IMG/VR virus record: IMGVR_UViG_3300042991_000131
Coordinates: 1 to 64,000 of that record
Source of the DNA: a virus
Length of the DNA stretch: 64,000 nt
Reading direction: 5' to 3' (one strand)
The notes under the pieces are model-generated. The model worked only from the letters and a program-made list of their open reading frames with translations. It was not told the DNA's origin and did not search any database. Positions 49,217 to 54,028 of the stretch are shown in pieces. Positions within the stretch are counted from its first letter, which is position 1. Every line of letters begins with the position of its first letter. The translations under genes were made by a program, and so were the position numbers.

Positions 49217-50074
49217 ATGGCTCTTGCATCGACTGTATTAGAAATCCCGATTAGCGAAATATTGATTGACGAGGACTTCAACTGTCGTGGGCAGATTGCG
49301 CCTATTGACGTTGTTGATCTTGCCAAAGATATCGAACGTCAGGGATTAATTCAACCTGTCACAGTGATGGCGGTTGAAGGATTACCAGACGGTAAGAAGT
49401 ACAAGCTTCTTGCTGGTTTCCGGCGCTGCAAGGCTCATATTGTTCTGAAGAAGCCGACAATCTCAGCCGTCATACGTCTGGACAAGCTGACCGACGCTGA
49501 CGCTCGGGTGATTAACCTAGCTGAGAACCTGCATCGCAAAGACTTAAATGTTCTCCAGGAGGCCAAAGCGATTAGGCATTTGTTCATCTTCTTTGGAGAA
49601 GCTGAAGTTGCCAATCGTCTCGGTCAGTCTCGCGGCTGGGTCCAGATACGTGCCATGCTTCTCAAGCTGCCCGAAGTCGTGCAGAAGGAAGTTGAAGCTG
49701 GCATGATTAGCCACACGAACATTCGTGAGCTATATGCGATCCATCGCGCTGGCAACATGGACAATCTCTACGCTGCTGTCCGCAAGATTAAGGACGGTAA
49801 GCTCAAAGGCTTGAAGAAGGTGACAGTTAATCCTGCCATCATCGGCCAAGAGGCTACTGGTAAGTTATTAAGGAATAAGAAAGAAATGGAGGCCATGACA
49901 ATGTTCCTAGTCGATAGAAAGTGTAAGGGCCTGCATACTCGATTACTGGCATGGGCAGCTGGAAACGTATCGACAGAAAATATCGTTACTGATATTTCAG
50001 CTTGGGCCGATGATCAGGGCATCGAGTTCGTTCAACCTACAAAAGAAGAATTAGAGGCAATATGCGCGCGGTGA
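49217..50074 (+). CDS. ParB-like DNA-binding protein (second)
   Basis: 285 residues with AAGGA before the ATG. ParB core: LLAGFRRCKAH, NLAENLHRKDLNVLQEAKAI and a following helix-turn-helix (EAEVANRLGQSRGWVQIR). Distinct from the other two ParB-like genes, so not a recent copy. Many GATTA words fall inside it. Overlaps thyX by 13 bases. Confidence 0.8.
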   Translation: MALASTVLEIPISEILIDEDFNCRGQIAPIDVVDLAKDIERQGLIQPVTVMAVEGLPDGKKYKLLAGFRRCKAHIVLKKPTISAVIRLDKLTDADARVINLAENLHRKDLNVLQEAKAIRHLFIFFGEAEVANRLGQSRGWVQIRAMLLKLPEVVQKEVEAGMISHTNIRELYAIHRAGNMDNLYAAVRKIKDGKLKGLKKVTVNPAIIGQEATGKLLRNKKEMEAMTMFLVDRKCKGLHTRLLAWAAGNVSTENIVTDISAWADDQGIEFVQPTKEELEAICAR

Positions 50075-51834
50075 CTCCTGAAGTGTTCTTAATTTCCAAG
50101 ACAAGTGATCTGGAGATTAACGAATACATGAAGTCGATTGGTAGTCCGGCCTGGCAACCTGATGATTCAGTTAGCGATAGCGAGAATCTGGTCGAAGCTG
50201 CTGGTCGCATGTGCTATCGGTCTTGGGAGCCTTATAACAGCGAAAAGAAGGACGCTACTAATCCTAACGTCACTCGTGTTCGCAAAGGCAACGCGGCCTA
50301 CATCGCTAATCTTCTTGAGACTGGTCATGGTTGCTACGACAAAGAAACAGAGGTTCTGACAAAAGATGGTTGGAAGTTCTGGGCTGATGTAACGATGACA
50401 GATGAGTTTGCCACTATTAATACTAAATCATATAAGATTAGCTATCAAAAACCTAGCCGTCTAGTGCGCTTCACGCACAAAGGACGCATGTATCAAGTGG
50501 ATAGCCCAGAAGTGGATCTACTTGTTACACCTAATCACAAGATGTTTGCGTGTGAGACAAGGACAAAGACTGGCCGCAAGAAAGAAAACTACGGGCTAAT
50601 CATGGCATGGCAGCTTGACTGCGATAGCCATGCATATATGAAGAACGCAGCTCCGGTGGCAAGTGATGATTTGCTTGAGAGTGATATTGCTTTTGGCAAG
50701 CTGTTAGGGTTCGCTATCGGAGACGGTCATTACAGTCAAGAGCGCCTAGAGTTTCATCTAAGGAAAGAGCGCAAGATTAGCTACCTTCGTAGCATTTGCG
50801 ACAGCGCCGGACTAAAATTAGAAGAAGATGGCGACAAGTTCTATGTGCGTTTCAGCACGGTATATGAGAAACAGTGCTTTGAGAATATGTACCAAGCTAA
50901 TGGTGAGAAGCAGATACCGATTAATATAACTGCTATGTGCTTTGAAGAACTCGAAGCTCTATATGACGGGCTAATCAATAGTGACGGCTGCACGACCGAC
51001 ACTGGCATCTGTTATGACACAGTTAGCGCTAAGTTAGCCGGTCAGTTTCAGCAACTATGTCTGCATCTTGGCAAATCAGCAAACATCTCGCAAGCCGATT
51101 GCTATAAGGATAGAACTACTTCCTTTGGGACCAAGCCGATTTATCGGTGTTATGTGATTGAGCGCAATAATCGGCCTATTGTCAATAAGGTGAAAGGTGC
51201 TAAGGGCAGAACAAACTGGATAGAAAACTGGGAAGGCGAAGTGTTCTGTGCTGAAGTCCCTAATCACACGTTGTATGTCAGACGTAACGGTAAGCCAGTT
51301 TGGTCTGGTAATTCAGTCCTAGAACATGCAAACATGACATTCGTCCTCAAGGACGTTAGCCGGGTCGTGACACATGAGCTTGTTCGTCATCGTGCCGGAT
51401 GCGCCTATTCTCAGGAGTCCTTACGTTACGTTCGTCTCACCGACATCAAAGCTTCGATTCCTGATTGTTTCGCAAAGAATCCCGAGGCGCTTGCACTGTT
51501 CACCAGTACGATTGAACATCTTGAGTTCGTACAAAGCCAGTTGGCTGAAATCTATAAGACTGACCTCGGTGGAACGGACTTCGCCCGCAAGAAGGAACTC
51601 ACATCCGCCTTTCGTCGTCTGGCACCAATTGGATTGGCCACAAGCATCACCTTCACAGCTAACATTCGTGCGCTACGTCATATAATCGAAATGCGTACCG
51701 CAATGGCTGCTGAGGCCGAGATTAGGCTCGTGTTCAAGCAGGTGGCTACCATCTGCAAGACCGAGCATCCGAATTTCTTCTCCGACATGACAATCGGCTC
51801 GGACGGCGTGTGCTCGTTCGAGCATTCGACCTGA
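50062..51834 (+). CDS. thyX: thymidylate synthase ThyX interrupted by an intein
   Basis: 590 residues. Removing residues 91-417 leaves a 263-residue ThyX, the normal length, with GHG|SVLEHA at the splice junction and the flavin-dependent ThyX signature RHRAGCAYSQES (slightly longer between RHR and S than the textbook RHRx7S). ThyX converts dUMP to dTMP using FADH2. It completes a dCMP-to-dTMP route with the upstream deaminase. Confidence 0.9.
   Translation: MRAVTPEVFLISKTSDLEINEYMKSIGSPAWQPDDSVSDSENLVEAAGRMCYRSWEPYNSEKKDATNPNVTRVRKGNAAYIANLLETGHGCYDKETEVLTKDGWKFWADVTMTDEFATINTKSYKISYQKPSRLVRFTHKGRMYQVDSPEVDLLVTPNHKMFACETRTKTGRKKENYGLIMAWQLDCDSHAYMKNAAPVASDDLLESDIAFGKLLGFAIGDGHYSQERLEFHLRKERKISYLRSICDSAGLKLEEDGDKFYVRFSTVYEKQCFENMYQANGEKQIPINITAMCFEELEALYDGLINSDGCTTDTGICYDTVSAKLAGQFQQLCLHLGKSANISQADCYKDRTTSFGTKPIYRCYVIERNNRPIVNKVKGAKGRTNWIENWEGEVFCAEVPNHTLYVRRNGKPVWSGNSVLEHANMTFVLKDVSRVVTHELVRHRAGCAYSQESLRYVRLTDIKASIPDCFAKNPEALALFTSTIEHLEFVQSQLAEIYKTDLGGTDFARKKELTSAFRRLAPIGLATSITFTANIRALRHIIEMRTAMAAEAEIRLVFKQVATICKTEHPNFFSDMTIGSDGVCSFEHST
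50332..51312 (+). other. intein with LAGLIDADG endonuclease in ThyX
   Basis: 327 residues. Begins with Cys (CYDKETEVLTKDGW, block A), has block B DLLVTPNHKM, LAGLIDADG-like motifs LLGFAIGDG and LYDGLINSDG, and ends NHTLYVRRNG...SGN before Ser. The penultimate residue is Gly, where many inteins have His. Likely splicing-active and mobile. Confidence 0.85.
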
Positions 51835-52223: not shown

Positions 52224-52377
52224 TCGTTCACATGGTCGTGACCGAATTAGCCGGTCGCGTAACTTGGAGGCTATTTGCAAGCCTCCTGACCATGAATGGC
52301 TGTGAAAGGATTAACACTCGTTGTGTTAGTCTGAGTCTTAGCGGGCAACACAGCCATTCATAGTCAGGAGAAACAAC
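52224..52377 (+). ncRNA. structured leader upstream of the methyltransferase
   Basis: 154 nt without a gene, foldable into two compact domains. Domain 1: CATGGTC (52231-52237) with GACCATG (52288-52294) enclosing GGAGGCT/AGCCTCC (52266-52286). Domain 2: 13-bp helix (52292-52304 with 52349-52361) enclosing TTAACAC/GTGTTAG. It contains a 15-nt motif (52336-52350) identical to 45044-45058. May be a cis-acting leader controlling the methyltransferase or an independent RNA. Confidence 0.65.
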
Positions 52378-53184
52378 GTGGGAGGATTAAGTGAGCTGGC
52401 ACTATTTGCAGGGGCAGGTTTCGGCATCCTGGGAGGCAAGCTCCTTGGATGGCGCACCCGATGCGCTGTTGAAATTGATCCCATACGTCGAAGGATGCTC
52501 TTTGAGCGCCAGCGCGATGGGATGCTCGAAAGATTCCCGATATGGGATGATGTACGATCTTTTGATGGCAAACAATGGCAAGGTGCCATTGATGTTGTCA
52601 CCGGAGGATTTCCTTGCCAAGACATTAGTGGCATGGGCAGCCGCGAAGGATTATTGGGAGATAAATCGGGTCTGTGGAGCCACATGGCAAGGATTGTCGG
52701 CGAAGTTAGACCCACTTACGTGTTCGTGGAAAATGTCAGGAATCTCACTCGACAAGGACTCGGCGTCGTGCTTGGCGATTTGGCCACTCTCGGGTATGAT
52801 GCAAGGTGGTGTTGCCTGGGAGCAGACGAGGTCGGTGCTAATCACAAAAGGGACCGTATCTGGATTCTGGCCTACTCCTACTGTGCAAGGGGATGCCAGA
52901 CGCGAGACAATCAGAAAGCCAGGTCAGCTATCGCATACTGGCACGACGCTCCTCGATGCGGTGATGCTGTATCCTACGCCAACGAGCAGCGATTACAGAC
53001 GTTGCGACCCAAACGAGCGCCGGGGACAATTGACTTCAATGTTCAATGGTGGGCTTCTGAACCCAGATTGGGTAGAGTGGTTGCAGGGTGTACCAATCGG
53101 TTGGACCGGATTAAAGCCATTGGGAATGGACAAGTACCAGCAGTGGTACAGGCTGCATGGACTATCCTTGGAGGAATCACTTAA
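52378..53184 (+). CDS. C5-cytosine DNA methyltransferase
   Basis: 268 residues from GTG with AGGAG seven bases upstream. Motifs in order: I ALFAGAGFG, IV TGGFPCQDIS with the catalytic Cys, VI FVENV, VIII RDRIWIL, and X IKAIGNGQVP at the C-terminus. Full length for the compact phage class. Overlaps an almost equally long frame (52391-53203) that looks like another phage protein family. Confidence 0.9.
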   Translation: MGGLSELALFAGAGFGILGGKLLGWRTRCAVEIDPIRRRMLFERQRDGMLERFPIWDDVRSFDGKQWQGAIDVVTGGFPCQDISGMGSREGLLGDKSGLWSHMARIVGEVRPTYVFVENVRNLTRQGLGVVLGDLATLGYDARWCCLGADEVGANHKRDRIWILAYSYCARGCQTRDNQKARSAIAYWHDAPRCGDAVSYANEQRLQTLRPKRAPGTIDFNVQWWASEPRLGRVVAGCTNRLDRIKAIGNGQVPAVVQAAWTILGGIT

Positions 53185-53203
53185 GATAAAGGCAATCAAA
53201 TGA
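52391..53203 (+). CDS. MSW...WPTPT family protein encoded in an alternative frame of the methyltransferase
   Basis: 270 residues in the +1 frame relative to the methyltransferase, over nearly its whole length. GTG start with GGAGG five bases upstream; its stop forms ATGA with the next gene (53200), the coupling used all over this phage. Signatures of a common phage/prophage family of unknown function are present in order: MSWHYLQ, SLDGAPDALL, TWQGLSAKLDP, IWPLSGMM, GFWPTPT, YPTPTSSD and LNPDWVEWL...GWTGLKP. It could also be a conserved by-product of methyltransferase coding, but length, RBS and coupling favour translation. Confidence 0.65.
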   Translation: MSWHYLQGQVSASWEASSLDGAPDALLKLIPYVEGCSLSASAMGCSKDSRYGMMYDLLMANNGKVPLMLSPEDFLAKTLVAWAAAKDYWEINRVCGATWQGLSAKLDPLTCSWKMSGISLDKDSASCLAIWPLSGMMQGGVAWEQTRSVLITKGTVSGFWPTPTVQGDARRETIRKPGQLSHTGTTLLDAVMLYPTPTSSDYRRCDPNERRGQLTSMFNGGLLNPDWVEWLQGVPIGWTGLKPLGMDKYQQWYRLHGLSLEESLKIKAIK

Positions 53204-53400
53204 TCATCAGCAACTCTACGTTGATTCATTTCAAGTGTGCCGGCGGACCTGGCTGCTGTGGCTACGAGGAAGATGTAGGTGTTGGCATCCAGATGGGCAT
53301 TGTGGTAATCGGTTCAATATCGATTATCTGCCCTAAGTGCGGTAATATCACAGTAGCTAATCCTGTGACAATTGCTGTACGTGCGACACCTGTTAAGTGA
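53200..53400 (+). CDS. 66-residue zinc-ribbon protein
   Basis: ATGA overlap with the alternative-frame ORF. Two cysteine groups: an N-terminal Cys14 and CC pair (FKCAGGPGCCGYEED) and CPKC near residue 45, consistent with a small zinc ribbon. Function unknown. Confidence 0.6.
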   Translation: MIISNSTLIHFKCAGGPGCCGYEEDVGVGIQMGIVVIGSISIICPKCGNITVANPVTIAVRATPVK

Positions 53401-53428
53401 CTAACCAATATACACCCTAAGGGTGACC

Positions 53429-54028
53429 ATGACAACGGAAACTATGCCTGCAAATCAAAATCGCGACCCTGGTGAGAAAACTCATCAGGGTAGTTTTGTG
53501 TATATTGAAAAGATTATTGAAGGTTTTCCACATTATGCTATTGCAAACAACGGTAATCTAATAAGTCTAACTAGGTACGTTAAAAATGGCAACGGATTAA
53601 AACTAGTTACAAGAAAAGTATTGGCAGGTAGCGTCGGTAAAGATGGTTACAAAATAGCTACAATAAGTAATGACACTGAATCGGTCACTGTTAGTCATCA
53701 CAAACTAGTTGCGGAATATTTCTTACCCACTAAGCCGACTGATTTGCATGTTCCGAATCATAAAGACGGCATCAAAGTAAATAACCACATTAATAATCTT
53801 GAATGGATGACACGGAAGGAGAATACAGAACATGCTATAGTGGTTTTAGGATGGAAACCAGTTGGTGTTAAAGGGTATGCTAATCCTTTGTGCAAACGTT
53901 CTCCGGAACTAATACTTGAAGTTAAAAGACTAAAGGCATTCGGTATAAAGCAAATAGAAATTGCTAAGACAACTAAATTAAGTCAAACTATTATCTCTAG
54001 GATATTAACCGGAGTATACGATGCCTAA
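53429..54028 (+). CDS. HNH homing endonuclease with NUMOD4-like domain
   Basis: 199 residues from ATG 53429 (AAGGG five bases before). N-terminal NUMOD4-like segment (EKIIEGFPHYAIANNGNLIS), then the HNH core HHKLVAEYF...VPNHKDGIKVNN...NNLEW, then a C-terminal helix-turn-helix (IKQIEIAKTTKLSQTIISRI). Overlaps the DNA polymerase start by eight bases. Confidence 0.8.
   Translation: MTTETMPANQNRDPGEKTHQGSFVYIEKIIEGFPHYAIANNGNLISLTRYVKNGNGLKLVTRKVLAGSVGKDGYKIATISNDTESVTVSHHKLVAEYFLPTKPTDLHVPNHKDGIKVNNHINNLEWMTRKENTEHAIVVLGWKPVGVKGYANPLCKRSPELILEVKRLKAFGIKQIEIAKTTKLSQTIISRILTGVYDA

Follow-up and report, generated by a model that had tools for sequence, protein, structure and literature searches.

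A probable C5-cytosine methyltransferase in two overlapping frames

A shared 0.8-kb segment of the phage DNA analysed here probably codes for a single C5-cytosine DNA methyltransferase that is divided between two polypeptides, alpha and beta, in overlapping frames of the same strand. Based on the sequence, we assign this reading a probability of about 85%. Alpha, with motifs I-VIII and X, would bind AdoMet and perform catalysis, and beta would contribute motif IX and the target-recognition region, by which the DNA site is probably chosen. The window is the whole stretch of 64,000 nucleotides that was analysed (positions 1 to 64,000 of the IMG/VR record IMGVR_UViG_3300042991_000131), and the coordinates of the features are given in Table 1.

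As the preliminary description had stated, the segment harbours two overlapping open frames. Alpha (frame 1, 268 aa) and beta (270 aa) are both fully open, and the beta start lies 13 nt after the alpha start, in frame +1. Also borne out were the separate GTG starts, each with its own Shine-Dalgarno sequence 7 nt (alpha) and 5 nt (beta) before it, and the ATGA overlap of beta with the next gene. The alpha start is located 4 nt upstream of the beta start in 157 of 174 loci (NTGA-ATG), with the start codons ATG (96 loci), GTG (42), and TTG (19), and therefore a stop precedes beta in beta's own frame. The window locus belongs to a smaller group with a 13-nt start offset. Neighbouring starts on one mRNA would initiate both chains, and alpha and beta would most likely be co-translated and assemble into an active heterodimer.

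Table 1. Positions of the features of the alpha/beta locus in the window.
Feature	Position	Strand	Evidence
Alpha Shine-Dalgarno, AGGAG	52366-52370	+	Sequence; 7 nt 5' of alpha GTG
Alpha, catalytic polypeptide of C5-cytosine methyltransferase, motifs I-VIII and X, no IX	52378-53184	+	PF00145, phrog_363, M.HhaI similarity
Beta Shine-Dalgarno, GGAGG	52381-52385	+	Sequence; in first codons of alpha, 5 nt 5' of beta GTG
Beta, +1-frame polypeptide (MSW...), proposed recognition subunit	52391-53203	+	Open in 80/84 loci, purifying selection, phrog_1008
Alpha motif I (LALFAGAGFGILGG)	52396-52437	+	Sequence and alignment A2
Alpha motif IV, PCQ with predicted catalytic cysteine	52612-52620	+	Invariant P79 C80, alignment A2
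Beta residues 100-158, conserved, predicted strands, opposite alpha motifs VI-VIII	52688-52864	+	Alignment A3; low-confidence AlphaFold; dSN/dSS 0.21-0.47
Alpha motif VI, ENV	52729-52737	+	Invariant E118 N119
Alpha motif VIII (GANHKRDRIWILAY)	52834-52875	+	M.HhaI similarity, alignment
Beta recognition cassette, WPTPT ... YPTPT ... up to motif IX	52868-53053	+	Swapped between loci; beta dSN/dSS 0.13 vs alpha dNS/dSS 0.82
Beta motif IX-like (LLNPDWVEWLQGVPIGWTG)	53054-53110	+	In-frame relatives, probability 96.9; beta dSN/dSS 0.04
Alpha motif X, AIGNGQVP	53116-53139	+	Invariant N250 G251 Q252 V253 P254
ATGA, beta stop overlapping ATG of next small ORF (53200-53400)	53200-53203	+	Sequence, ORF list

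Catalytic and proposed recognition polypeptides

Alpha matches Pfam PF00145 (E=1.4e-26) and phrog_363 (E=4.6e-58), and resembles M.HhaI over residues 72-166. Among the features of C5-cytosine methyltransferases (PF00145), we found motif I, PCQ, ENV, motif VIII, and motif X in alpha. The methyltransferase in frame 1 had been called complete, which is wrong, since the PF00145 match covers only profile positions 5-161 of 324, and neither the target-recognition region nor motif IX was present in alpha according to motif reading and PF00145 coverage. The catalytic region of M.HhaI and M.HaeIII is matched by alpha; however, these enzymes carry the recognition region and motif IX on the same single chain, and at the window locus motif IX is not in frame with the catalytic motifs.

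Beta matches phrog_1008 (E=1.9e-20), labelled DNA methyltransferase in PHROGs. The 31 beta proteins of alignment A3 all match phrog_1008, and therefore the beta frame is already recorded as a protein family. In the beta sequence, WPTPT and YPTPT are followed by LNPDWVEWLQGVPIGWT, a motif-IX-like pattern. The C-terminal profile of beta matched in-frame relatives with a probability of 96.9, and 40 decoys reached at most 2.6. The beta profile detected nothing when compared with two canonical methyltransferases, the only two compared, and the motif IX assignment therefore rests on the in-frame relatives and the motif pattern. AlphaFold models of beta were of low confidence (mean pLDDT 52 and 64) and too weak to help; neither Foldseek with these models against the PDB nor a PDB profile search with beta gave a usable result.

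No family for beta was found in Pfam, NCBIfam, and PADLOC, and its first 100 residues are novel. Both findings would suit a separate protein of other function, such as an anti-restriction factor, whose overlap with the methyltransferase is incidental. However, beta brings exactly the parts that alpha is missing, its C-terminal part matches the in-frame relatives, and it was never found without alpha among 186 loci, which makes such a protein scarcely credible.

Distribution of the alpha/beta pair

The search with tblastn revealed beta in 35 phage records, and each fetched record has alpha over beta, with beta in +1. Homologues in unrelated phages cover 95% of the beta protein at ~30% identity, and lie over alpha wherever examined. 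Viral contigs and bacterial genomes were also scanned with profiles, which brought the set to 186 loci, mostly picked by their beta match. Beta was in +1 over alpha in 186/186 of these, and none had beta without an overlapping alpha. The proposal of two separate phage protein families is therefore not supported, and alpha and beta would be halves of one enzyme. Support was found for the second frame itself, which has homologues at hundreds of loci and is under purifying selection.

The same layout is present in hundreds of phages and bacteria, and the GTDB matches span many phyla by name. In a set of 185 genomes from the class of G001, G001 included, five matched the beta C-terminal profile. 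Automated motif assignment placed motif IX in +1 and motif X in frame 0 at 225 of 231 loci. Of 5426 Escherichia coli genomes, 4 carry a relative of the Salmonella S9-5 pair, where the annotation reads DNA cytosine methyltransferase.

Probable coding in the +1 frame

At the window locus, the +1 frame contains no stops, against 5.8 expected when the alpha amino acids and codon usage are kept. Stops were also counted at 84 distinct loci picked by alpha alone with two alpha patterns, one of which, [ML]NELALFA, overlaps the beta start and not the rest of the frame. In the stretch from codon 5 to a point 15 codons short of the motif X end, ten +1 stops were observed, whereas shuffling of the synonymous codons of alpha predicted 367.6, and 80 of the 84 loci had none. 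Three hundred flanking genes used as control were not depleted in stops (2320 observed, 2344 expected). An earlier stop count was dropped because it had been taken within ORFs already selected as open, and was replaced by the alpha-selected count.

Held-out real betas outscored all 50 alpha-synonymous shuffles at 39 of 40 loci for the N part and at 40 of 40 for the C part. If only alpha were made, the +1 frame would be open and similar merely through the conservation of alpha. This is in agreement with the position of beta homologues, which always lie over alpha, and with the frame-shifted similarity that conserved overlapping DNA yields by itself, as the median shuffle still reaches 92 bits with the beta N profile. 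Nevertheless, stops are depleted (10 vs 368 expected) with alpha protein and codon usage fixed, the real frames exceed all shuffles at nearly every locus, the recognition region is constrained in beta and not in alpha, and neither effect appears in control genes. Production of alpha alone is therefore extremely improbable.

Selection on the two frames

Purifying selection acts on both frames. In 68 independent pairs, beta dSN/dSS was 0.38 [0.33-0.46] for codons 2-99, 0.26 [0.22-0.31] for codons 100-159, and 0.13 [0.10-0.22] beyond, against 0.85 [0.66-1.06] in 20 pairs of control genes. The alpha dNS/dSS values of the same three segments were 0.11, 0.13, and 0.54. The ratio dNN/dNS was also considered as a test for the second frame, and was rejected because control genes give 0.50.

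Finer bins were calculated from 174 pairs, with no locus entering more than three times. Beta and alpha gave 0.13 and 0.82 in the recognition region, 0.04 and 0.28 in motif IX, and 0.44 and 0.15 in motif X. The strength of selection thus reverses between regions of the two frames. Beta codons 75-99 are near-neutral, with a dSN/dSS of 0.77, near the control. Doubly synonymous changes are few (8-24 per bin in codons 75-99, the TRD, IX, and X), and therefore single-bin values are soft.

The switch in selection strength from one frame to the other near codon 160 is what a +1 ribosomal frameshift at this point of alpha would produce, giving one chain in which motifs I-VIII are followed by the recognition region and motif IX from beta. 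At four loci, L155, L165, L191, and L192, motif X lies in the +1 frame along with motif IX, and there a single shift would yield a full enzyme. However, an in-frame stop lies before the separate beta start (NTGA-ATG), and beta is constrained upstream of codon 160. Motif X is moreover in frame 0 at nested loci, and therefore a second shift would be needed. Altogether, the frameshift is very unlikely, and two separately initiated polypeptides are the preferred reading.

In-frame relatives and origin of the overlap

In the in-frame relatives, a motif scan of selected loci found the PTP repeats and motif IX together with the catalytic part, and a recognisable motif X in most. Twelve loci first used as single-chain controls turned out to be a mixed set, since L286, L276, and L018 have their PTP repeats in +1, and therefore only the eight loci with at least three in-frame PTP (L275, L277-L281, L285, and L287) were used. 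These eight loci had 89 stops in the +1 frame, against 97.6 expected. According to the preliminary description, loci keeping the methyltransferase with a broken second frame would speak against a coding second frame. Such loci were found mainly as these eight relatives with motif IX in frame, where they fit an enzyme that is split in the window; the plainest exception among the alpha-selected loci is L193, with seven +1 stops.

The mixed loci L018, L276, and L286 have motif IX in the alpha frame and PTP repeats in the +1 frame, and L193 is likewise mixed according to both translations. In L286 and L193, the PTP repeats are in the +1 frame despite motifs IX and X in the alpha frame. In the tree of the catalytic part, the group with motif IX in alpha is apart from the nested group, with few state changes; the root is arbitrary. 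In L175 and in L021 (Mycobacterium phage Llama), alpha switches frame partway, as if a small indel had moved both frames. The annotation of phage Llama lists two DNA methyltransferase genes.

The suggestion that the second family arose by overprinting probably holds for part of beta, and overprinting probably runs both ways. The first ~160 codons of beta were probably overprinted on the catalytic motifs of alpha, and the alpha region from VIII to X on the recognition region and motif IX of beta. Tentatively, and at somewhat less than even odds, the locus may be an old and widespread dual-coding gene, in which beta residues 100-158 would be an overprinted module that assembly now requires and NTGA-ATG would set the subunit ratio.

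Exchange of the recognition cassette

Among 175 pairs with nucleotide identity of at least 88% over the first 480 nt, the recognition regions were less than 40% identical in 80, and the motif IX regions of these pairs were ~80% identical. Loci that are near-identical in the catalytic region exchange the recognition segment as a cassette. By cassette swapping in an overlapping frame, specificity could change while the second protein is kept.

Comparison with known two-polypeptide methyltransferases

M.EaeI is a two-polypeptide C5-methyltransferase like M.EcoHK31I. The small gene of M.EcoHK31I was reportedly found by Lee et al. in 1995 to be nested in the large one, in a different frame. The large subunit of M.EcoHK31I carries motifs I-VIII, X, and the predicted recognition domain, and the small subunit carries motif IX (PMC3404938). 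Compared by description only, the window pair is similar in having two polypeptides with I-VIII and X on the large one and IX on the second, and a two-polypeptide C5-methyltransferase with this motif split is thus already known. The window pair differs from M.EcoHK31I in that the region from VIII to IX is constrained in beta and not in alpha in its family, and in that the beta frame covers alpha almost completely, from motif I on.

M.AquI, also a C5-methyltransferase of two polypeptides, has I-VIII and part of the variable region on one, and the remaining variable region and IX-X on the other (PMC3404938). Whereas its small subunit has the distal recognition region, IX, and X, the window locus keeps motif X in alpha and not on the second polypeptide; the motif split of L155, L165, L191, and L192 is M.AquI-like. 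The literature searched held no published account of the alpha/beta overlap, only mentions of M.EcoHK31I and M.AquI, and neither the overlap of phrog_1008 with alpha nor its subunit role was found described there. Aspects that appear to be new are the almost complete overlap, the conservation of the NTGA-ATG double start, the broad distribution, and a division of labour expressed in numbers.

Most records examined have only one frame annotated. If both subunits are made, such methyltransferases are routinely annotated by one frame only and the recognition part is therefore missed; a change seemingly silent in one gene could also break the other. With so many related pairs, a long same-strand overlap could be put to the test directly in bacteria. 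The only opened record that annotates both fully overlapping frames is L019, Paenibacillus phage Bloom (CDS 906-1961 and 1108-1812).

Neighbouring genes

The scanned neighbours include genes for a dCMP deaminase, ThyX, an HNH/NUMOD4 protein, and DNA polymerase A. Since no restriction gene was detected among the adjacent genes scanned, the enzyme would probably protect the phage itself, modifying its DNA to evade host restriction. The ThyX (Thy1) ORF, at 50062-51834 of the window, has an insert with a LAGLIDADG-like domain that looks like an intein. Shortly downstream of the alpha/beta pair, at 53423-54028, the window also encodes an HNH_3/NUMOD4 protein similar to homing endonucleases.
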